Shown: positions 5,917 through 53,592 of the stretch, piece by piece
Layout of the letters: each line of letters begins with the position of its first letter
Position numbering within the stretch: the stretch's first letter is position 1
Source of the DNA: Levilactobacillus wangkuiensis
GTDB lineage: Bacteria > Bacillota > Bacilli > Lactobacillales > Lactobacillaceae
DNA: 64,000 nt
Reading direction: 5' to 3'
Assembly: GCF_016861605.1 (NCBI RefSeq)
Contig: NZ_BOLM01000004.1
Location: 62,001 to 126,000 of the forward strand
The notes under the pieces: generated by a model
Databases searched by the model: none
Told to the model about the DNA's origin: nothing
Seen by the model: the letters and a program-made list of their open reading frames with translations, nothing else
Position numbers and translations under genes: made by a program

Positions 5917-7362
5917 TTAGTCTTCAGTTGCGGCTTCAGCCTTTTCTTCGGCTTCTTCTTCAACTTTTTCAGTTTCTAGTTTAGATTCCAATTCCTTAAC
6001 GATTTCAGCATGCTTCTTTTCTGACAAGGTTACCTTGAATTGGTAAATCAGGGCAGCCACGACCAGCAAAATCATTGGCATGTAGAAGATGAAGGAATGG
6101 AAGATGAACATCCCGTGAGCGGTAATGTCGCTAGGCTTAGCGTTACCGGTCATGCCGGCATGTACAGCGGCCAGCACAACGATCCCCGTTGAGAAGGCCC
6201 CAGCTAATTTATCAATCAAAGGACGAACAGACAACGTCACGGATTCGTTCCGCGTACCGTTCTTCCATTGCCCGTATTCCACACTGTCGGTGATGGTCAT
6301 CAAGGCAGCTAAGAAAATCATTGGGTATGGGAAGAAGAAGATGGCGTCGGCAATGTACATCATGATGGCACTGCTACCGGCAAGGTTAAACAGAATGTAA
6401 CCAACCAGCATCATGCAGATACCGCCGATGTAAACACCTTTACGCGTAATCTTGGAAACGATGATTGGGAACAGTGGCACGGAGAGAATCCCCAGAATAG
6501 CGGTGACAATCCCGATAACACTGTAAGCAGCGGCGTTCCCGATAACGTAACGGAAGTAGTAAATCAACAGTGAGTTGGTAACCACGTAGCTTAAGGCAAA
6601 CAACAGGTATGAGAAACCTAACCACATCAATTGGTCATTTTCACCAATAACCTTGAAGACATCGCGGAACCGGGTCCGTTCAGTGTTTTCACGAATCAAG
6701 CTGGTAGTTTCCTTAGTCCCAAAGAAGGTTGCCAAGGCACCTAACAGTGAAACTAACCCGATAACCGTTGCAAATCCTAACCAACCGGCACGGGTTTGGG
6801 TACTGCCATGCGTCCCTGAGAATTGTTGTGAGAAGTAGATAACCAATGGGGTAACGACAATGATGACCCCTTGAGAACCCAAGGTAGAACCGAAACGACC
6901 AACCGTCCCGAACTTGTTACGAACCTTGGTATCAACACTCAAAGCAGGTAACATGGACCAGAAGGAAATGTCTTTGAATGAATAGAAGATATCCATGATG
7001 ACGAAGACAATCCCAAAGAGCATGAAGTACAAGGATGAGTTGGAGTCCGCTAACCCAAACAGGCTAGAGAACATCAGGATCAACCCAACGGAACTGACGA
7101 TGGCCCCGGCAAGCAGCCAAGGCTTGAACTTACCCATTTTGGTATCGGTATTATCAACCATCCCACCAATCATGGGGTCAAAAGCAATTTCAATTAAACG
7201 AATAATAACAACCATCGAGGTAACGATTCCGGCTTCAGCAGCGGAACCCTTGCCGACGAACAGGGCACTGGTAACAAAAATGGCAAAATAAGTATTTAGG
7301 GTTGCGTAGAAGGCATCGTGACCGAACGCCCCCAAAGCATATGAGACATATTGCTTAATCAT
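5917..7362 (-). CDS. GPH-family sugar:cation symporter, probable galactose/galactoside permease
   Basis: A 12-helix permease of the glycoside-pentoside-hexuronide family (MFS_2). The N-terminus (MIKQYVSYALGAFGHDAFYA) and the DRNE-rich loop are typical of LacS/GalP-type carriers. It ends after about 480 residues in a Glu/Lys-rich tail and has no C-terminal IIA domain, unlike streptococcal LacS. I start at the ATG at 7362, which has AAAGGTGTG upstream; an in-frame ATG 14 codons earlier lacks good support. The location between galK and pgm genes suggests galactose or lactose uptake. Substrate is inferred from context. Confidence 0.85.
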   Translation of the reverse strand: MIKQYVSYALGAFGHDAFYATLNTYFAIFVTSALFVGKGSAAEAGIVTSMVVIIRLIEIAFDPMIGGMVDNTDTKMGKFKPWLLAGAIVSSVGLILMFSSLFGLADSNSSLYFMLFGIVFVIMDIFYSFKDISFWSMLPALSVDTKVRNKFGTVGRFGSTLGSQGVIIVVTPLVIYFSQQFSGTHGSTQTRAGWLGFATVIGLVSLLGALATFFGTKETTSLIRENTERTRFRDVFKVIGENDQLMWLGFSYLLFALSYVVTNSLLIYYFRYVIGNAAAYSVIGIVTAILGILSVPLFPIIVSKITRKGVYIGGICMMLVGYILFNLAGSSAIMMYIADAIFFFPYPMIFLAALMTITDSVEYGQWKNGTRNESVTLSVRPLIDKLAGAFSTGIVVLAAVHAGMTGNAKPSDITAHGMFIFHSFIFYMPMILLVVAALIYQFKVTLSEKKHAEIVKELESKLETEKVEEEAEEKAEAATED

Positions 7363-7424
7363 TTTCTGTTTCACACCTTTCAACGGGAGAAATGTTGCAG
7401 ACAATTAACGGCGACCACTTAGTC

Positions 7425-7670
7425 TTAGTGGTACCGGTGTTCGATGATCTTGGAAAGAACCTCTTCCCGTTGTTGGGCCTTCGCCATATCGAACTGGGAT
7501 TCTTCCAGCCGGTTAAAGTCTTGGGCCAATAACGTTGCTTCCAGGTAAAGGGTCAGTTGCCGTTTGATGTACAACTTGTTTTCTTCATCTGGATATTGTG
7601 CGTTCCCACCTAATACCGCAGCAGCGAACACTGCTGGGTCCAACGTAATCTTGTCATCCTTCTTAGCCAT
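7425..7670 (-). CDS. Small conserved protein upstream of sugar permease
   Basis: An 81-residue soluble, charged protein starting MAKKDDKITLDP. AGAGGTG lies eight bases before the ATG at 7670. No domain is recognised. It is the first gene of the permease transcription unit, about 60 nt ahead of the permease start, and directly follows a cre-controlled promoter, so it is expected to be co-expressed with sugar uptake. Function unknown. Confidence 0.7.
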   Translation of the reverse strand: MAKKDDKITLDPAVFAAAVLGGNAQYPDEENKLYIKRQLTLYLEATLLAQDFNRLEESQFDMAKAQQREEVLSKIIEHRYH

Positions 7671-7744
7671 TTTGAAACACCTCTGTTTTCTAAAATAAAG
7701 TTTAGCTAAATCTGGTAAAACCTGCGCCAACGGTTTAAGTAAAA

Positions 7745-7759
7745 TGTAAGCGCTTTACA
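7745..7759. promoter_or_regulatory. cre-like CcpA operator at the permease promoter
   Basis: TGTAAGCGCTTTACA is nearly palindromic and matches the cre core, with one extra T in the right half relative to the 14-base consensus. It lies just downstream of the -10 box on the minus strand, where CcpA binding would block transcription of the small gene and permease. Confidence 0.7.
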
Positions 7760-7765
7760 ATCATT

Positions 7766-7794
7766 ATTCTAAGGACATGTCCGGATAAATGCAA
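7766..7794 (-). promoter_or_regulatory. Promoter of the permease transcription unit
   Basis: On the minus strand TTGCAT (7789-7794), 17 bases and TAGAAT (7766-7771). The spacer contains the perfect 10-base palindrome GGACATGTCC, a possible operator for a dedicated regulator that is not in this window. Confidence 0.7.
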
Positions 7795-7842
7795 CCACTT
7801 TCATTGTGTAAAAATATACTAACTATTGACGAACCATGCAAT

Positions 7843-7856
7843 TGTAAGCGATTGCA
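7843..7856. promoter_or_regulatory. Second cre site upstream of the permease promoter
   Basis: TGTAAGCGATTGCA matches the cre consensus TGNAANCGNWNNCA at every fixed position. It lies about 50 bases upstream of the -35 box. Next to it is the perfect palindrome GCAACCGGTTGC (7854-7865), of unknown role. Confidence 0.75.
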
Positions 7857-7865
7857 ACCGGTTGC

Positions 7866-8333
7866 TTTTTCTTGATAAAAAATTTAGTAAAGCACGTAGT
7901 AAATATCATAAATCCCCTGTTTTTCACGAAAACGGCCAATCGACCGTTCTGAAAGTTTGTGAAAATGAACAGACCGAGGCGAAACTGTCGTCAACAACCG
8001 GTTGTCTTTTCCTAAGCCACAGTTCCCCCTCATGACTGCCGGACAAATATCCAAGTCTAAATCACAACCAATGAAAACCAACTGCTGACAATCCAAACAC
8101 CAAGCCTCCTTCCCCAACTACTGACCGAAGAACTGGCCACGACCAATAAATCCCCCAAAAAGAAAAACAGCCTGCGCCGGCCCCCTCACAGAAGGACCAG
8201 TCACAGACTGTTCACGTATAACGTTATTTAAGTTAAGTGGTACCGACCGAGGTCAGTACTACAGTCAATTTCGCAAACACCTTAACATCCTGACAACCAA
8301 CCACCAACACGGAAAGTTAACTAGCTGATCCGT
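7866..8333. other. Non-coding stretch upstream of permease unit
   Basis: No gene is supported. ORFs here have no ribosome binding site and no recognisable product. The stretch ends where the class A element at 8334 begins. Confidence 0.5.
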
Positions 8334-23466: not shown

Positions 23467-23706
23467 TTAATGACTCGAGGTCCGTGAACGTAAGCGCTGG
23501 ACCCGCGGACTGCTCGCCTTGACGGGTTGATTTAACAAAATCACGCCAATAATAATGGCCATAAACCCCACCACTTTAAATCCGGTCAAGACCTCACCAA
23601 ACGCCCAGACGCCAATCAGGCCAGTAATGGCCGTGCCGACGCCAGCCCACATGGCATACGTCACCCCTAATGGATGCTTTTGCATGGCGAGTGTCACCAA
23701 AATCAA
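23467..23706 (-). pseudogene. Truncated hybrid SMR multidrug-transporter gene
   Basis: The 79-residue remnant is a fusion. Its first part (ILVTLAMQKHPLGVTYAMWAG) matches the middle of the SMR gene at 27411-27719. The rest (VGTAITGLIGVWAFGEVLTG to the end RLRSRTSSH) matches the C-terminal half of the SMR gene at 27012-27395. Homologous recombination at the shared AMWAG/AVWAG-VGTA stretch of the two adjacent pump genes would give exactly this product. The N-terminal membrane helix and start region are missing, so it is not expected to work. Confidence 0.85.
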
Positions 23707-23781: not shown

Positions 23782-23974
23782 AGCCTCAAGCTCGTAATGA
23801 AACCATACTGGAGGAGAATGAATTATAGAACGGCTGACCACTGTTCGTTACTTTAGAATATTTCCAATAAAGTAATGGAATTGATTTGTCCACCACGAAG
23901 GTACACATACGGACTATATATTTTCATGTACCGCGTGCCGCACATACTACTAATCAGATTAAGGGGAATGAATC

Positions 23975-24742
23975 ATGAAGAAGATACTTGTTAGTTCATT
24001 ATTACTGGGAGCCGTAATCGGCGGAATGACCGGTTTAAGCTCAGCAAAAGCTCATGTGTCATCATACAAGGTTTCCAAACTAAATAGTATGCAACCCACC
24101 TCTTACTACGCCAAGAGCTCCAAAAGTGGCTATCTATGGAATAAGGCTCACACTAAACGTCAACATAATTTGAAAAATTATCCCAAAACAACCTGGTATG
24201 CTACTGGCAAATACACCATGAAATCTGCTAAAAACAGTGGTATTTACCTGCAAGTCGCAAATGGAAGTGGTAAGGCCAAAGGCTATGTCTGGACCGGATA
24301 CATGAAGAAAGGCGTTAATCCTGCCTACCCTCAAGGCACTATTGTAGGACCTACTGGGGTGTCCATGAGCACTTTCAATGTCGATAAGAAATTAAATCAA
24401 CAACTATTAAGTTTATTCCCAGGGAGCATCCAAGACAAGACACTACAAAAGCTCGCAAACCTGAACTACATTTATCACAATATTAGTGACGGATTTTACG
24501 ACTATGGCAATCTCATGCTTGGTGATGACATTGATAGCGAAATTGGTTTAAGTAGTCGCACCTTAATTAAAGATAAAAGCACTGATTTTAAGACATTTGA
24601 ACAGAACCAAATCATTGCAATCTTAAAAGAACGAGGTAAGACCGTTTCGGATTTCAAAAATTACCGCATTGGAGCATATGCTTTTCCAAAGCACAGCAAA
24701 TACTACGGCGAATTCTCAATTGTCATCTTGCCTCCTAAATAA
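23975..24742 (+). CDS. Secreted lactobacillar protein with SH3/GW-like domain
   Basis: 255 residues with a signal peptide (MKKILVSSLLLGAVIGGM, probable cleavage after AKA near residue 27). It then has an SH3/GW-like region of about 80 residues (YLWNKAHTKRQHNLKNYP, TWYATGKY, YVWTGYMKKG) as seen in many lactobacillar surface proteins, and a unique C-terminal part. It is likely a loosely wall-bound exported protein. The paralogue at 25450 is close to identical in the first 140 residues and diverges in the C-terminal region. Lower GC than its surroundings. AAGGGGAATG precedes the start. Confidence 0.75.
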   Translation: MKKILVSSLLLGAVIGGMTGLSSAKAHVSSYKVSKLNSMQPTSYYAKSSKSGYLWNKAHTKRQHNLKNYPKTTWYATGKYTMKSAKNSGIYLQVANGSGKAKGYVWTGYMKKGVNPAYPQGTIVGPTGVSMSTFNVDKKLNQQLLSLFPGSIQDKTLQKLANLNYIYHNISDGFYDYGNLMLGDDIDSEIGLSSRTLIKDKSTDFKTFEQNQIIAILKERGKTVSDFKNYRIGAYAFPKHSKYYGEFSIVILPPK

Positions 24743-25405: not shown

Positions 25406-25449
25406 GTTTTCGGAGTCAGAACATTTAATAAAACAAAGGGGTTTGACGC

Positions 25450-26220
25450 ATGAAAAAATTACTTTTTAATTTGTTACTGGTAGGTGCCATAATCGGGGGA
25501 ATGGCCAGCTTAAACTTAGCAAGCGCTCACGCATCAACATACAAAGTTTCTAAGCTGAAGACCATGTCACCTACTTCATATTACGCAAAAAGAGCAAAAA
25601 ACGGCTACCTATGGAATAAGACGCACACGAAGCGACAACATAATCTAAAGAACTATCCCAAAACCACTTGGTATGCCACCGGAAAGTATGCTATGAAATC
25701 CCCTAAAAATAGTGGTACTTACCTGCAAGTTACAAATGGTAGTGGTAAAGCAAAAGGGTATGTCTGGACTGGTTACATGAAGAAAGGTGTCAATCCAGCT
25801 AACCCACAAGGTACGATTACCGATCCATTTGGGGCCTCAATGAGCACCTATAACGTGGATGACAAATTAAATCAGCAGTTGATTAGTCTATTCCCCGGGT
25901 CGGTGCCAGATAAGGCACTGCAAGCAGCCGCAAATTTTTTCTTCATGTATATTGGTGGCCAAGGTGACAACTATACGAGTGTTATTGAAAAAGCGGTCGG
26001 CTGGGAAAATGAACCGTCAGTAACCCGATTCGTTCCTAGCGTCTCTCTAAAGAAGTCTGACAATTTCATTGTTTTAGAGAAGTCTCAGTTGAAAGATCGT
26101 CTGTCCAAACAAAATAAAAGATTTACAGACTTCAAAGGCTATCGCATTGGTGCTTACGCGTTTCCTAAACATAGTAAAAATTATGGTACGTCAATGATCC
26201 TCTTAATGCCTTCAATCTAG
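25450..26220 (+). CDS. Secreted lactobacillar protein with SH3/GW-like domain, paralogue
   Basis: 256 residues with a signal peptide (MKKLLFNLLLVGAIIGGM; cleavage after SAHA near residue 29) and the same SH3/GW-like first half as the protein at 23975. The C-terminal third differs (GGQGDNYTSVIEKAVGWENE) but ends with the same YRIGAYAFPKHSK motif. The pattern, conserved wall-binding half and variable middle with conserved tail, suggests divergence after duplication in which one segment is under different selection. Function unknown. Confidence 0.75.
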   Translation: MKKLLFNLLLVGAIIGGMASLNLASAHASTYKVSKLKTMSPTSYYAKRAKNGYLWNKTHTKRQHNLKNYPKTTWYATGKYAMKSPKNSGTYLQVTNGSGKAKGYVWTGYMKKGVNPANPQGTITDPFGASMSTYNVDDKLNQQLISLFPGSVPDKALQAAANFFFMYIGGQGDNYTSVIEKAVGWENEPSVTRFVPSVSLKKSDNFIVLEKSQLKDRLSKQNKRFTDFKGYRIGAYAFPKHSKNYGTSMILLMPSI

Positions 26221-27011: not shown

Positions 27012-27395
27012 TTAATGACTCGAGGTCCGTGAACGTAAGCGCTGGACCCACGGATTAACTGGCCGCGGACTGCTCGCCTTGACGGGTTGATTTAATAAAA
27101 CAACGCCAATGATAATGGCAATAAACCCCACCACTTTAAATCCGGTCAAGACTTCACCAAACGCCCAGACGCCAATTAGGCCAGTAATGGCTGTACCGAC
27201 ACCAGCCCAGACCGCATAGCCCACACTGAGGGGGAGCTGCCGTAAGGCTAACGAGAAACTAAAGATTGCTAGTCCGTAGAGGAACATCCCCGCAATCCCA
27301 ATCCACCGATGAGTGAACCCATCTGAGAATTTCAACAAGCTTGTCCCGACAATTTCGACACCGATGGCGAATACCAACTGTAACCATGCCCGCAT
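27012..27395 (-). CDS. SMR-family multidrug efflux protein, subunit 2
   Basis: 127 residues, four membrane helices, with the SMR features of a glutamate in helix 1 (GVEIVGTSLLKFSDGF) and the YAVWAGVGTA helix-3 motif. It has a basic C-terminal extension (PVKASSPRPVNPWVQRLRSR) beyond the usual length of about 105. It follows the partner gene at 27411 by 15 nt, so the two probably form a heterodimeric drug/cation:proton antiporter. Its 3' half also exists in the hybrid remnant at 23467. Confidence 0.88.
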   Translation of the reverse strand: MRAWLQLVFAIGVEIVGTSLLKFSDGFTHRWIGIAGMFLYGLAIFSFSLALRQLPLSVGYAVWAGVGTAITGLIGVWAFGEVLTGFKVVGFIAIIIGVVLLNQPVKASSPRPVNPWVQRLRSRTSSH

Positions 27396-30340: not shown

Positions 30341-30603
30341 TGCGCGATGCTAGGTTGCGGAAACCCGGTTTCCACCTGCGGCGGGTCAGTCCCGTTCCCG
30401 GCGGCGGGCTCAAACTGCCCTGCTATGGGGCCGGTTCCAGCCAAAGTTCTGGCTTCCACCTCAACTTTGAGCCTGAGAAGCGGTCTCAAAGATTGTCCCG
30501 TGGGCTAGGCTGGAAAAGAACTCCAGCCAAGGCCACCGACACAGCTGGTCAGTTTGGCCCACCTCTGGTCACTCACAATTGCGCACCCATTTTCAACCGC
30601 GCT
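30341..30603 (-). ncRNA. Structured intergenic element, class A
   Basis: Minus strand: GTGACCAGAGGTGGGCC, CAGCTGTGTCG, apical GGCTGGAG/CTCCAGCC extended by CCTTGG, and the head hairpins are all present. The foot (GCGC, GGTTG, AAA pairings) is weaker than usual. The 3' end is about 12 nt beyond the terminator of the convergent 57-residue gene. Minus partner of the divergent pair with the array at 30944-31533. Confidence 0.78.
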
Positions 30604-30943
30604 TACCACCTCATCCCCCTCACATAAGTCCATCACGATAAATGACTTATCGTCGACACCTTATTGCGGATCAATAATTAAACAACTGATACCTTTGGAC
30701 CGTAAATTCCGAGTCACCGGGACTGCCCGCCTCCGGTTCCAACAGATTGTCCGCTGACCTAGCATGTGCTAAAAGATTTGGTCGTTGACAGTTTGATTGG
30801 CTGTGAGGCAGCGTTGTCTACCATTACCGCTAACGCCGACAATTCAAAGCTCCCAATCCCAATCTATGGTCATCACATTGGCAACCATACCGACCGTGGT
30901 AAAAATTTGATTGCCAACACATTATTACGGATTAACTGCAAAA

Positions 30944-31068
30944 TTAGTCGGAGGGCTGGGAAAACTGGGCTGGTTGTGGGAGTGACCAGAGGCGGCCAAG
31001 GTGCCCGACTGTGTCGATGGTCTTAGCTGGAGTTCTTTCCCAGCATAGTTCCATGGGACCAACCTTTC
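30944..31068 (+). repeat. 3'-truncated element, unit 1 of a tandem array
   Basis: Has the class A 5' foot (GGGCTGGGAAAACTGGGC), GTGACCAGAGGC, CTGTGTCGATGG and the apical hairpin, then breaks off after CCATGGGACCAACCTTT into CACACCAGCTCATCAC. The upstream flank, TGGTAAAAAT...TTGCCAAC and ACGGATTAACTGCAAA, is repeated before units 2 and 3. Confidence 0.8.
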
Positions 31069-31167
31069 ACACCAGCTCATCACCCCACGCGGTCATCACA
31101 TCGGCAACCATCACCGACCGTGGTAAAAATCTGGTTGCCAACTCATTGTTACGGATTAACTGCAAAG

Positions 31168-31252
31168 TTAGCCGCAGGGCTGGGAAAACTGGGCCGGTCG
31201 TGGAAGTGACCAGAGGCGCGCCAAGGTGCCCGGCTGTGTCGATGGTCTTAGC
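31168..31252 (+). repeat. 3'-truncated element, unit 2 of a tandem array
   Basis: Class A 5' foot and GTGACCAGAGGC through CTGTGTCGATGGTCTTAGC, then GCTCATGAG and the same CTTCACACCAGCTCATCAC junction as unit 1. The shared junction shows that the array grew by duplication of a larger unit. Confidence 0.8.
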
Positions 31253-31354
31253 GCTCATGAGATAACCCTTCACACCAGCTCATCACATTGACAACCCCAC
31301 CGACAGCAATAAAAATCTGATTGCCACCTCATTGTTACGGCTTAACTGCCACGT

Positions 31355-31533
31355 TAGCCGCAGGGCTGGTGAAAATGGGCTCAGCCATGGGAGTTGCCTT
31401 AGCGGGTCCCCCGCTTAGGCAACTGCTATCTTTGAGACGTGCTCTTCGGCTCAAAGTAAGTCCGAAGACCGCACCTCAGGCTTCGGACGTGCGCCCACAG
31501 CGTCACGGCCCATTTTCACCAGCCCGGAGGCGA
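31355..31533 (+). ncRNA. Structured intergenic element, class B, complete last unit of the array
   Basis: Plus strand. AGCC-GCA-GGGCTGGTGAAAATGGGC pairs with GCCCATTTTCACCAGCCC-GGA-GGC; then GTTGCCTTAGCGGG/CCCGCTTAGGCAAC, CTTTGAG/CTCAAAG and GTCCGAAGACCG/CGG hairpins. Although the two truncated units before it are class A, this one is class B. A promoter-like TACATT lies between it and map. Confidence 0.85.
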
Positions 31534-31652
31534 TGACAAAGACAAATAAAACCGTACCAAACCAATTTCAAAAAGATTTTAACCGCATAATTCGCTGAAA
31601 AGGTGAAATTGGTGTACATTAGAAGTAGATACAAATTTTAGGAGGTAACACG

Positions 31653-32447
31653 TTGATAACCATTAAATCAGACCGTGAAATTGAGAAAATGGCCGAATCC
31701 GGTGCCGTTTTAGCTGGTGTCCACAAGGGCTTACGGGACATCATTAAGCCAGGTATTTCTAGCTGGGAAATTGAACGTTTTGCCAACAAGTACATTGAAG
31801 AACATGGGGCCAAGCCTTCCGAAAAGGGCTTTGAAGGCTACAAGTATGCCACCTGTGTCAGTGTGAACGATGAAGTCGCCCACGCCATCCCCCGCAAGGA
31901 ATTGTTGCTTAAGGAAGGCGACATCGTGGCCGTTGACATGACCGTCAACCTGGACGGCTTTGAAAGTGACTCTTGCTGGACTTACGCTGTCGGCAAAATC
32001 AGTCCTGAAGCCCAACACCTGATGGACGTCACCAAGAAGTCCCTCTACTTGGGTATCGACCAAGCCGTTGTCGGCAACCGGATCGGTGACATTGGTCACG
32101 CCATCCAAGCCTACACGGAAGGCCAAGAACACATGGGCGACGTCCGTGAATTGATTGGCCATGGGATTCAACCAACCATGCACGAACAACCAAACGTCCC
32201 TAACTACGGGGAAGCTGGCAAGGGCCTGCGGTTACGTGCCGGCATGACCATCACCATCGAACCCATGATCAACTTGGGCACCTGGGAAATTGCCACGCGC
32301 CAAACGGCTGACAAGTCATGGGACTACTACGTCACGGCTGACGGTTCCCTGTCCGCCCAATACGAACACACCTTGGTCATCACTGACGACGGTCCTAAGA
32401 TCTTAACGTCACAAGACGACGCCATCGACGAAAAGTACCGGCTCTAA
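31653..32447 (+). CDS. map: Methionine aminopeptidase, type I
   Basis: Removes the N-terminal methionine from nascent proteins. The 264-residue protein shows all five metal ligands in order: two Asp in VDMTVNLDGFESDSCW, His in ELIGHGIQPTMHE, Glu in TIEPMIN and Glu in YEHTLVIT. It starts with TTG at 31653, seven bases after AGGAGG. It is a monocistronic gene with its own terminator. Confidence 0.96.
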   Translation: MITIKSDREIEKMAESGAVLAGVHKGLRDIIKPGISSWEIERFANKYIEEHGAKPSEKGFEGYKYATCVSVNDEVAHAIPRKELLLKEGDIVAVDMTVNLDGFESDSCWTYAVGKISPEAQHLMDVTKKSLYLGIDQAVVGNRIGDIGHAIQAYTEGQEHMGDVRELIGHGIQPTMHEQPNVPNYGEAGKGLRLRAGMTITIEPMINLGTWEIATRQTADKSWDYYVTADGSLSAQYEHTLVITDDGPKILTSQDDAIDEKYRL

Positions 32448-32514: not shown

Positions 32515-32684
32515 ACACTAAGGTCATTGGTAAGTGTAGAACAAATATAGGATTATTAAGGACTCAATTGAAGGATTGACGTTATGAAGACGTTTGGCCT
32601 GCTCGCTCAGCTCACGTAGACAAATAAGCTACCACAAGCCAGGCGAAACCCAAGACCAATCGGATAAATAATCATCCACGTCAC

Positions 32685-32977
32685 GGGTCAAACCAGTGTC
32701 AGCCGCAGGGCTGGGAAAACTGGGCCGGTCGTGGAAGTGACCAGAGGCGTGCCAAGGTGACCGGCTGTGTCGATGGCCTTGGCTGGAGTTCTTTTCCAGC
32801 CTAGCCCATGGGACAACCTTTGAGACCGCCCCTCAGGCTCAAAGTTGAGGTGGAAGCCCGCCCTTTGGCTGGAACCGGCCCCACAGCAGGGCTCCTTGAG
32901 CTCGCCGCCGGGAACGGACGCGACCAGGCCCAGTTTTCACCAGCCCGGAGGCGCTGACAAAGACAATTGTTTAACCC
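32685..32977 (+). ncRNA. Structured intergenic element, class A, complete
   Basis: Near-identical to the copy at 529-783 over its 3' half. The outer arms GGGTCAAAC and GTTTAACCC pair with one mismatch; TGTCAGCC/GGCGCTGACA, the GCA/GGA loop and the full foot are present. The element ends only about 30 nt before the methyltransferase start codon, leaving no space for a promoter, so it should be transcribed as that gene's leader. Confidence 0.88.
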
Positions 32978-33007
32978 AAGTAAATATTAATTAGGAGGTT
33001 GGCTTGT

Positions 33008-33727
33008 ATGGCTTTAACCAATCAGACACCCGAAGACCAGGTGCAAGACATTTTCAACCGCATCGCCCCACAGTACGACCAAATGAACAGCGTGATCAGT
33101 CTGGGAACCCACCGCATCTGGCGGCAACAGGTGATGAACGCCATGACGCTGCGGCCCGGCGACTTTGCGCTCGACCTCTGTTGTGGCACGGGCGACTGGA
33201 CCCTGTCCTTGGCGCAAGCCGTGGGTCCCGCCGGCCAGGTCGTGGGCTTAGACTTTAGCGACGTCATGCTGCAAGAGGCCAGCCGCAAGGTCCGCGCGGC
33301 CCACCTGAGCGACCGCATCACGCTGCGTCAGGGAGATGCCATGCACCTGCCCTACCCGGGCAACAGCTTCAACGTGGTCACGATTGGCTTTGGCCTGCGC
33401 AACGTGCCGGACGCCAACCAAGTCCTCCGGGAAATGGCGCGCGTCGTCAAGCCCGGCGGCCAAGTCGTTTGCCTGGAAACGTCGCAACCCACTAATCCGG
33501 TGATTCATGCCGGCTGGCAGCTGTACTTTGGCCACGTGGTCCCGTTGATGGGCCGTTTTGCCCATCATTATCAGGCCTACAACTACCTGCAACGCTCGAC
33601 ACACAAATTCGTCACGGTGACGGAATTGGCCACCATGTTTCGTACGGCCGGCCTCCAACGAGTCCACTACCACCAGTTCAATCTGGGCGCGGCGGCAGTC
33701 CATTTGGGCACAAAGCCTTACCGTTAA
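33008..33727 (+). CDS. menG: Demethylmenaquinone/ubiquinone methyltransferase-like (UbiE/MenG)
   Basis: SAM-dependent C-methylation of demethylmenaquinone in menaquinone synthesis. The 239-residue Rossmann methyltransferase has motif I DLCCGTGDWTL near 59, and the family signatures GFGLRNVPD and VVKPGGQVVCLETSQP. AGGAGG precedes the ATG at 33008. No other menaquinone genes are in the window; many lactobacilli keep this gene alone or use it with exogenous quinone precursors, so its in vivo substrate is uncertain. Confidence 0.88.
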   Translation: MALTNQTPEDQVQDIFNRIAPQYDQMNSVISLGTHRIWRQQVMNAMTLRPGDFALDLCCGTGDWTLSLAQAVGPAGQVVGLDFSDVMLQEASRKVRAAHLSDRITLRQGDAMHLPYPGNSFNVVTIGFGLRNVPDANQVLREMARVVKPGGQVVCLETSQPTNPVIHAGWQLYFGHVVPLMGRFAHHYQAYNYLQRSTHKFVTVTELATMFRTAGLQRVHYHQFNLGAAAVHLGTKPYR

Positions 33728-33737
33728 AATAGTCACA

Positions 33738-33787
33738 AAAATAAGGTATTCCCATTAGCGTTGAAATAATGGGAATACCTTATTTGT
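33738..33787. terminator. Bidirectional terminator
   Basis: AAATAAGGTATTCCCATT pairs with AATGGGAATACCTTATTT between convergent genes. Confidence 0.9.
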
Positions 33788-33819
33788 TTTACTGCCTAAG
33801 CGTTCGCGGTAAAAATAAT

Positions 33820-42423: not shown

Positions 42424-42612
42424 CGTTCCGCCTGCGGCTGGCAGGGACCAGTACGCCTCTGGGGCACGGGGCAAGCCAAAGAGCGGTCTTGCCCCTCGCT
42501 GGGAGCCTCGCAACCCCCGAGTCCCCCAGACGTCCCGTGCCCTAGGCTGAGAAAGAACCTCAGCCAATGCCACCGACACAGGCGGTGGTCCCTGCCAGCC
42601 TCCGACTCCACA
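42424..42612 (-). ncRNA. Structured intergenic element, class C
   Basis: Minus strand: GGA-GGCTGGCAGGGACCA pairs with TGGTCCCTGCCAGCC-GCA. CGCCTGTGTCGG, the apical GGCTGAGG/CCTCAGCC and GGGGCAAGACCG/CGG-CTTGCCCC hairpins follow. The foot sequence is unique among the copies and perfectly paired. The 3' end is about 100 nt from the maa start codon. Confidence 0.85.
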
Positions 42613-42879: not shown

Positions 42880-42962
42880 CGGGTTAAACCAGTGTCAGCC
42901 GCAGGGCTGGGAAAACTGGGCCAGTCGTGGCAGTGACCAGAGGCGAGCCAAGGCGACCAGTC
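42880..42962 (+). repeat. 3'-truncated element, unit 1 of a tandem pair
   Basis: GGGTTAAACC, AGTGTCAGCC-GCA-GGGCTGGGAAAACTGGGCC, GTGACCAGAGGCGAGCCAAGG, then a stop at GCGACCAGTC. The next unit's flank begins at once (GTCCACCAG...TTAACTG.TAGAC). Confidence 0.8.
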
Positions 42963-43078
42963 TTATTTAAAAGGCCGTCCACCAGTATTAACTGATAGAC
43001 GACCAACAAATACATCTAAAATTTCAAGTAATGACTGTCACATCCACGGCACACCACACTTAGGAACTAACGCGTAGC

Positions 43079-43245
43079 GGGCTAAACCAGTGTCAGCCGC
43101 AGGGCTGGTGAAAATGGGCTAAGCCGTGGGAGTTGCCTTAGCGGGTCTCCCGCTTAGGCAACTGCTATCTTTGAGACTCGGTCCATGAGGCTCCAGACGT
43201 GCGCCCACAGCGTCACGGCCCATTTTCACCAGCCCGGAGGCGCTG
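43079..43245 (+). ncRNA. Structured intergenic element, class B, head hairpins fused
   Basis: Plus strand. The class B foot (GGGCTGGTGAAAATGGGC with GCCCATTTTCACCAGCCC) and GTTGCCTTAGCGGG/CCCGCTTAGGCAAC arm are intact. CTTTGAGACTCGG...GAGGCTCCAGACG shows that the second and third hairpins have collapsed into one by deletion. The 3' end is about 33 nt from the stop of the VOC gene, convergent. Confidence 0.82.
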
Positions 43246-43277
43246 TAAAACACACAGTTTACTCAGCTCAGTACGCG

Positions 43278-48957: not shown

Positions 48958-49184
48958 ATTGGTTTAACCAATGTCAGTGGAGCTGGAGGCTGGTGGGGTG
49001 GCGAGGCCTGTGTCGGTGATGTTGGCTGGGGTCCTTTCTCAGCCTACATCACGGATGACCTTTGAGACTTGTGTTTTTCAAGGCTCAAAGGCAAGATACA
49101 AGACCGCTTCTCAGGCTTGTATCGGTCCCCTCAGGCGCTGCCACCCCACCAGCCGCAAGCGCAACGAATTCAACGGCTAAACCA
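48958..49184 (+). ncRNA. Structured intergenic element, class C
   Basis: Plus strand. Outer TTGGTTTA/TAAACCAA arms; GGA-GGCTGGTGGGGTGGC pairs with GCCACCCCACCAGCC-GCA. AGGCCTGTGTCGG, an apical hairpin TGATGTTGGCTG/CAGCCTACATCA, CCTTTGAG/CTCAAAGG and GATACAAGACCG/CAGGCTTGTATC follow. The last arm is fully Watson-Crick. Its 3' flank reaches the stop codon of the 59-residue gene. Confidence 0.85.
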
Positions 49185-52526: not shown

Positions 52527-52560
52527 AAAAAAACCACTAACCGAAGTCAGTGGTTTTTTA
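52527..52560 (-). terminator. csp terminator
   Basis: AAAAAACCACTGAC with GTTAGTGGTTTTTT on the minus strand. Confidence 0.88.
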
Positions 52561-52586
52561 CTAAGCACGATTTAGGCTAATGTAAA

Positions 52587-52790
52587 TTAGTCAACTACCG
52601 TAACGTTAGCAGCTTGTGGGCCACGGTCGCCTTGTTCTACATCAAGGGATACGTGTTGGCCTTCTTCAAGAGTCTTGAAGCCTTCGCTGTTGATAGCGGA
52701 GAAGTGAACGAAAACGTCTGAGCCGTTTTCCAAAGTGATGAAGCCGTAACCTTTATCAGCGTTGAACCATTTAACAGTACCTTGTTCCAT
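52587..52790 (-). CDS. csp: Cold-shock protein, CspA family
   Basis: 67-residue single-stranded nucleic-acid-binding OB fold with RNP1 KGYGFI and RNP2 VFVHF, an RNA chaperone. The ATG at 52790 is the family start; GGAGG lies ten bases ahead. A long leader of at least 100 nt, as usual for csp genes, is expected upstream. Confidence 0.95.
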
Positions 52791-52977
52791 AAGAATGAAA
52801 CCTCCATGCGCATAGCGCAATAATATTTGCATTTGAAAGCTGGGGTAAAAAGGAGCCATTCTTATAAGAACGTCGAGCCTTTACTTCCGAACCATAAATA
52901 CATTAGTCATAGAATAACAGGTATTCCCGAGAATAGCAAATGCAAAGTGTCGAAATCGGCAAACTTTTTAGCGACCC

Positions 52978-53592
52978 CTATAAAGCATTCACTGTTAACC
53001 ATGTTTGTGCCGCAAGCACCTCATGCGGCGTCAGCTGGTGAGTTCCGCCCGTTATTTCCATCGTCGTTTCCGCCTGAATCTCGTCAAAACTTTTTAAAAC
53101 TTTTTTTACCGTGGCGACCGTTACCAGCGGATCATGTTCCCCCGCCGACAGCCAAGCCCGATAACCGGGTCGCTGAACTGGCAACGCCACTGGTAACTGC
53201 AACGGATGGAAGAGCAACGCCGCCTGCCCCGGAATTTGCCCCGTTAGGACCCCGTAGGCAGCCATGGCCGCACCATTTGAATAACCGACCACCACCAGCC
53301 GCTCAGCGTCCCAGCGGTGCTCCTGGCAGACCTGCTGGACCTGCTCGCCCAACCAGTTGGCCTCTTCAGCGATTTGCGCCGGGTTCACGGGTCCCGCCGC
53401 CGTTTGCGAATAATATTGCCGTTGCGCGCCAACACCCTGCCGGCCCGCAATCGTGATCAATGGACTCTGCGGGGCCAAACGCCGACCAAACGTCAACATT
53501 TCCTGATTCGTCCCGCCAGTTCCCTGCAAGAGCAGGAGTGGGGCTGCCGTATTGGCGCCGGGCATCGTTTCAATTAAATCCGTTTCCGTCAT
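52978..53592 (-). CDS. Carboxylesterase / phospholipase, alpha-beta hydrolase
   Basis: 204 residues. Nucleophile elbow GYSNGAAMA near residue 98, Asp in AGEHDPLVT and His in GGTHQLTPHE complete the triad expected for the carboxylesterase/YpfH family. It probably hydrolyses short acyl or aryl esters. It begins 12 nt after the gene at 53604, as part of a two-gene unit. Confidence 0.85.
   Translation of the reverse strand: MTETDLIETMPGANTAAPLLLLQGTGGTNQEMLTFGRRLAPQSPLITIAGRQGVGAQRQYYSQTAAGPVNPAQIAEEANWLGEQVQQVCQEHRWDAERLVVVGYSNGAAMAAYGVLTGQIPGQAALLFHPLQLPVALPVQRPGYRAWLSAGEHDPLVTVATVKKVLKSFDEIQAETTMEITGGTHQLTPHEVLAAQTWLTVNAL

Follow-up and report, generated by a model that had tools for sequence, protein, structure and literature searches.

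How does a repeat array come to hold two truncated copies of one class and then, next to a gene, a complete copy of another? The original prediction for one such array in a food bacterium of the genus Levilactobacillus was directional growth, in which new elements of a different class are placed at the gene-proximal end while older ones decay. We followed this up in a window of 64,000 nucleotides (G000:C4:62001-126000), that is, the whole stretch of DNA analysed, which belongs to a source genome of 3.14 Mb in 56 contigs (G000), and we compared it with two relatives, L. lanxiensis 13B17 (G015) and L. mulengensis 112-3 (G017). Orthologues of the protein encoded downstream of the array put the source genome in this genus, close to these two species. 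Positions without a contig name are those of the window.

The array lies on the plus strand upstream of an open reading frame with a TTG start (31653-32447), which from its translation, its orthologues and our knowledge of the family we take to be map, encoding methionine aminopeptidase. From 5' to 3' it consists of a flank and a 3'-truncated class A element, twice, and then a flank and a complete class B element. The first flank copy (30865-30942) found exactly three matches in a search of the whole genome, all of them at this array (147, 108 and 73 bits) and far beyond chance, with E-values of 1e-36 to 2e-14. The truncated element of unit 1 (30939-31067; profile match 13-147 over 30939-31074) retains the tip of an internal hairpin at 31028-31048, as placed by alignment, and runs through a 16-nt junction (31068-31083; repeat family D9) into the second flank copy (31084-31162; genome match from 31091), which is 91% identical to the first. 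Unit 2 (31163-31270; profile match 13-104 over 31163-31259) is also of class A and is followed by a junction of the same sequence (31271-31286) and by the third flank copy (31287-31347; genome match 31280-31349), 83% identical to the first. Unit 3 (31348-31551) is the complete class B copy, with inverted-repeat ends at 31357-31380 and 31508-31531. The flank is therefore present three times, before 30943, 31167 and 31353, and the original prediction was right in its coordinates, its unit count, its single junction behind both truncated units, and its assignment of unit 3 to a complete class B copy and of units 1 and 2 to the 5' part of class A. It had also let the truncated units stop at different points, which the alignments do not bear out: both end at one common position, which the consensus fold of class A puts in the first arm of its second internal hairpin, and unit 2 seemed shorter because the 21-nt tip of the first internal hairpin is absent from it. 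To judge from the consensus, the flank closes with ~16 nt that resemble a decayed version of the 5' end of the element itself.

A repeat-rich short-read draft in so many contigs might be suspected of having created the array in assembly. Arrays with related junctions are found in the assemblies of the two other species, however, and with 9% and 17% divergence of the second and third flank copies from the first, and a deletion in unit 2, the array cannot consist of misplaced identical copies; an artefact is hardly credible. Around the array, a complete class A copy stands downstream of map (32684-32970, plus strand) and a related, class A-like element lies upstream in the opposite orientation (30349-30596, minus strand), both recognized by profile match. 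The window holds a second array with a duplicated flank on the plus strand (42880-43261), in which a truncated class A copy (42880-42960) precedes a complete class B copy (43078-43261). Other repeats of the window are of different kinds. Two 300-nt stretches that are 75% alike (23951-24250 and 25426-25725) lie at the starts of the open reading frames 23975-24742 and 25450-26220, which are probably a gene pair; a direct repeat of 156 nt with 92% identity (23503-23658 and 27063-27218) has 3.5 kb between its copies; and an A+T-rich inverted repeat of 27 nt with a 9-nt loop (33731-33793), directly behind the open reading frame 32999-33727, is possibly a terminator.

The two classes are interspersed repeats of 188-261 nt, class A being about 261 nt long and class B about 188 nt. 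In 1.22 Mb (39% of the source genome) there are 127 complete copies, 46 of class A and 81 of class B, drawn from 265 profile matches of at least 25 bits; whole-genome searches scored the best 40 of 367 class A and the best 40 of 269 class B candidates. In the consensus fold of both classes the paired ends form a stem around three hairpins. Compensatory changes, in which both bases are altered and still pair, occur at 20 of 82 pairs in class A (27 of 30 fetched copies) and at 7 of 60 pairs in class B (29 of 30 copies). Class B finds matches at E 1e-3 in 27 of the 35 genomes of the genus and at E 1e-6 in 10 of the 251 genomes of the family, nine of them Levilactobacillus and one a weak match elsewhere. 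Some copies match the class A core alone (profile about 84-206), such as 42457-42586 on the minus strand and 49008-49134 on the plus strand; a number of these oppose the orientation of a complete copy in whose intergenic space they lie, and they are perhaps a third class. At the gathering score, the Rfam families found in the window were cspA and one tRNA only, with none for the repeat element; the match to the cspA thermoregulator family lies at 52527-53021 on the minus strand (96.5 bits). The array found no match in the plasmid collection, and the matches listed in the open literature include no description of the repeat family or of class exchange at fixed sites.

The same locus in the two relatives bears directly on directional growth, since the orthologous region holds two units in both L. 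mulengensis and L. lanxiensis. Compared pairwise, the first unit of L. mulengensis agrees with unit 1 of the source genome at 10 of the first 15 diagnostic columns and then with unit 2 at all, over a stretch that includes the 21-nt deletion and the next junction. When only substitutions are counted, in a joint alignment of seven units and with the columns of this unit taken from 46 on, it agrees with unit 1 at 8 of 12 columns and then with unit 2 at 10 of 10. On these columns, the first unit of L. mulengensis is a clear hybrid of units 1 and 2, and its second unit corresponds to unit 3 (31 of 33 columns against unit 2). In L. lanxiensis, the flank of the second unit agrees in its front part with unit 2 at 7 of 9 substitution columns and in its rear part with unit 3 at 3 of 4, so that this unit, on weaker evidence, is probably a hybrid of units 2 and 3. 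The first unit of L. lanxiensis is mixed, its front following unit 2 at 9 of 12 columns and its rear unit 1 at 7 of 9, and it keeps the unit-1 hairpin; its two-unit array could therefore be an older state, and the states of unit 1 common to the source genome and L. mulengensis may be later changes. The gene-proximal copy is of class B in all three species, though the body in L. lanxiensis ranks only sixth among the matches there. The simplest reading is probably a three-unit ancestor that lost units through recombination between them. An unequal crossover between two different two-unit alleles is a possible alternative and likewise involves no addition at one end. Given the hybrid unit of L. 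mulengensis and the two-unit arrays of the relatives, directional growth is not supported at this locus.

Arrays of this shape recur in the genome. A 3'-truncated copy on the same strand lies within 250 bp upstream of 18 of the 127 complete copies, at a spacing of 35 to 133 nt in these 18 arrays, and a 5'-truncated copy lies downstream of none of the 127. Two complete copies have a same-strand neighbour downstream, in one case complete and in the other 3'-truncated. Among the 19 neighbour pairs of the source genome, in one of which the upstream copy is nearly complete, 10 are A-B, 5 A-A, 4 B-B and none B-A; in 200 kb of each relative there are 14 A-B and 3 A-A pairs, some of which represent the same sites. 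A further 24 loci on other contigs, taken from 60 fetched, high-scoring and not randomly chosen copies, gave nine arrays, seven ending in class B and two in class A, with one weak upstream copy (20 bits). Because upstream neighbours in both samples together are mostly of class A (24 A to 4 B) and complete copies mostly of class B (46 A to 81 B; Fisher p 1.6e-6), class A looks like a former occupant. Duplication of the 5' flank is plain in 9 of the 19 source-genome pairs, weak in 4 and undetected in 6; for 17 pairs of the two relatives the numbers are 8, 1 and 8. This neighbour-pair test replaced a blunter one with 100-nt flank windows, in which 12 of the 127 copies exceeded 99% of the null upstream and 1 of 127 downstream.

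Does this recurrence indicate that arrays grow from the gene-proximal end after all? The unit order that led to the original prediction does recur, and the constant order, together with the truncated copies of class A and the complete copies of class B, is what additions at that end with outward decay of older units would give. Outer copies also tend to be slightly more diverged than inner ones, being lower in 12 and higher in 5 of the 19 pairs of the source genome (p 0.07) and lower in 12 and higher in 3 of 17 pairs of the relatives; among our results, this one leans most towards directional growth. Growth by addition itself is not supported. The hybrid unit in L. mulengensis and the gene-proximal class B copy in three species stand against it, and so does an array on another contig (L030, G000:C28 about 7195-7888) whose four units alternate, the first being like the third and the second like the fourth, as block duplication makes. 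The second unit of this array has a class B-like 5' end joined to a class A interior. Furthermore, when 41.8 kb upstream of complete copies were searched for further decayed units, with 15.2 kb of recognized copies masked, two weak matches emerged, one per strand, and class differences occur at array-free sites too. We therefore think it very unlikely that the arrays grew by directional addition.

The polarity of the arrays needs an explanation of its own. If duplication were symmetric, the space available on the 3' side would by itself lead one to expect about 7 mirror arrays per 18; 0 were found (P = 0.003), so that a plain symmetric duplication process is incomplete. The one-sided arrangement could arise if selection favours a complete copy beside the gene, or if the element itself gives break repair a direction. 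Complete copies have a marked polarity relative to genes, with gene calls taken from codon usage rather than from curated annotation. Among 125 of the 127 complete copies (the other two being without a gene on one side), the 3' end is closer to a gene than the 5' end in 117, at a median distance of 22 versus 465 nt, and a gene lies within 30 nt on the 3' side in 67 and on the 5' side in none. The median distance on the 3' side is 67-104 nt where the gene start faces the element and 9-11 nt where the gene end does. The proximity thus holds at gene starts and gene ends alike, which is not what a simple leader or trailer RNA would look like. Of the complete copies, 83 of 127 run against the majority gene strand of their contig, as do 14 of 19 arrays; these proportions look alike when compared by eye, and replication orientation as the cause of the polarity is unsupported.

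What happens to the class of an element over time can be followed at orthologous sites. Where both flanks could be anchored, a complete copy stands at the orthologous site in 43 of 48 cases from the source genome to L. lanxiensis, 25 of 28 from the source genome to L. mulengensis and 36 of 39 from L. lanxiensis to L. mulengensis, and the aligned, element-masked DNA between the species has a mean identity of 93%. The A/B class differs within 17 of 44, 6 of 26 and 9 of 36 unordered pairs, respectively, and 9 of these 17, 1 of these 6 and 6 of these 9 differing pairs have no array in either species. Of 16 such pairs, 14 could be anchored and aligned; they come from 10 sites, and random A/B pairs served as the control. 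The 20 nt before the core are 0.86-0.89 identical in same-site pairs versus 0.50-0.63 in random ones, and the inside ends 0.99 versus 0.88 (5') and 0.99 versus 0.85 (3'). The 3' flank is moderately alike (0.51-0.66 versus 0.27-0.53), the outermost 5' end block shows no difference (0.95 versus 0.96), and the body is no more similar than in random pairs. Unusual paired end bases are kept across a class difference at C4:38788 (A in the source genome, B in L. mulengensis) and at C4:29370 (A in the source genome, B in L. lanxiensis). One class B body of L. lanxiensis recurs with 98% identity at two other sites, at distances of 60 and 104 kb; of these three sites, two are of class A in the source genome, one of them with its interior deleted. 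It thus appears that a site can receive a copy of another site's body in place of its own and keep its ends. The source of a new body may be conversion within the genome or exchange with other strains, both of which fit. At one site (G000:C4:148639-148848) a minus-strand class B copy in the source genome corresponds to plus-strand class A copies in the two relatives, with an extra minus-strand class A fragment in L. lanxiensis, an apparent change of orientation.

One might instead suppose that array and class change are products of a single event: a class A resident suffers a break, for whose repair a class B copy from elsewhere serves as template; the 3' side is restored by way of the shared end, synthesis at the 5' end continues beyond the element and copies the flank, and the product is joined to the broken class A copy, so that the array is the scar of a replacement. 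This would explain the polarity, namely a copied 5' flank and residents truncated at the 3' end, and it would explain why flank copies can be very similar in arrays that are already A-B; such arrays hint that a single event may both duplicate the unit and change the class. It also fits C4:49591, where two species have class A and the third has a truncated class A copy followed by class B. Against it speaks the site downstream of map, where L. lanxiensis has a truncated A and a B and L. mulengensis a truncated A and an A, with the same truncation; here the class has therefore changed without a new duplication. Array-free class differences are common in two of the three species pairs, moreover, and the repair would leave its own one-sidedness unexplained. 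The association between arrays and class differences is inconsistent, with a p of 0.018 in one species pair and of 0.11 and 0.70 in the others, which counts against the single event and at the same time keeps it as a rival; overall, we consider it unlikely, if less so than directional growth.

The account that we regard as probable is an old tandem array of an element with its own upstream flank, shaped by duplication, unequal recombination and conversion of bodies through the ends. A tandem duplication with its left end in the flank and its right end inside a class A element would, as a first step, produce a 3'-truncated copy followed by a complete copy. Unequal homologous recombination between units would then gain and lose units, a step that the comparison of the three species supports. 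Finally, recombination through the inverted-repeat ends would swap the body of the complete copy for that of another class and leave the flanks and outer ends in place, for which other sites provide support and which we infer for the array upstream of map. Truncated copies would keep the former class because, having lost the 3' end, they take no part in the exchange, and the complete copy would stay against the gene because the topology of the duplication leaves it there. The tendency of outer copies to be more diverged is unlike what simultaneous duplication predicts and counts against this account, as do the missing mirror arrays, the pairs in which no flank duplication was seen, the A-B arrays with very similar flanks, the mixed first unit of L. 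lanxiensis, the inconsistent association of arrays with class differences and the outermost 5' block that is no more alike than in random pairs. As to the joints themselves, the element interior and the upstream flank share short similarity at two, and the other listed cases of 13 are unclear.

Taken further, the sites would be standing docks at gene boundaries, whose outer ends persist across species while bodies of at least two classes are exchanged from elsewhere in the genome; truncated copies would be fossils of the previous occupant, and a succession from A to B could be read in one genome. We offer this wider idea tentatively, as one that has a real chance of being correct but that we would not yet back.

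It remains to place these elements among known ones. Classes A and B share their inverted ends, and a short body enclosed by such ends is typical of MITEs; a mobile class B element could have landed next to a class A copy already present, duplicating a long stretch of target as it inserted. The high copy number and the intergenic location would suit such an insertion. The spacing of 35 to 133 nt, however, is unlike a fixed target duplication, outer-end variants at exchanged sites can go with the site and not with the class, and three apparent empty sites turned out to be one larger deletion, one pair of joined end stubs and one ambiguous case with short edge repeats. In the second of these, in L. 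lanxiensis (G015:C2 about 418090), nothing separates the two end repeats, as though the body between them had dropped out. A search for the Y1 (RAYT-type) transposase family, PF01797, gave no match in the source genome, and 23 of the 35 genomes of the genus have one. Insertion of the MITE type is in our judgment highly improbable. As described in PMC10969869, MITEs resemble our elements in being short, with inverted ends, many copies and known truncated copies; here, in contrast, no clear target duplication or clean insertion was seen, and bodies are exchanged within standing ends.

The closest elements we know to have been described are the BOX repeats of Streptococcus pneumoniae. According to PMC3049150, these are likewise small, intergenic, high-copy and modular, with inverted ends paired in a tight fold and tandem internal units of varying number; to account for changes of length, that work lists slipped mispairing and unequal crossover along with other mechanisms. 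The likeness is one of description, and the two also differ: in our arrays the tandem unit is a locus-specific flank with a truncated element rather than the internal boxB module of the boxA-boxB-boxC pattern. A second difference is that here the classes differ at fixed sites.

The high-copy intergenic palindromes known as REP, BIME and REPIN elements stand close to stop codons. Our elements share with these, which are the subject of PMC2817692, PMC3116915 and PMC3733652, the high copy number, the intergenic location and the palindromic form. They differ in having 188-261 nt and three internal hairpins, compared with palindromes of 20-40 nt in REP. Mobilization of the REPIN/RAYT type was rejected, the source genome being without a Y1 match and the elements being too long for a 20-40 nt palindrome. 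CRISPR and integron arrays grow directionally, and the array upstream of map resembles them in being ordered, with a complete unit at one end. Unlike them, it shows no sign of one-end addition: its units are irregular and decaying, and the changes seen among these elements take the form of recombination between units, block duplication and body exchange. Addition at one fixed end in the manner of CRISPR is not what the unit hybrids and the alternation in L030 reveal.

The array upstream of map is in itself ordinary, and what would interest a specialist is that bodies appear to be swapped while the ends persist. Caution is called for before directional growth is inferred from a tandem array that has a complete copy at one end; such an array is not proof of direction because any duplication ending inside the element gives the same picture. 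If bodies are indeed exchanged within standing ends, a new repeat type can spread without new insertions. Counts of insertions and losses between species would then miss much of the turnover, and the truncated copies of the arrays would be a direct record of succession.
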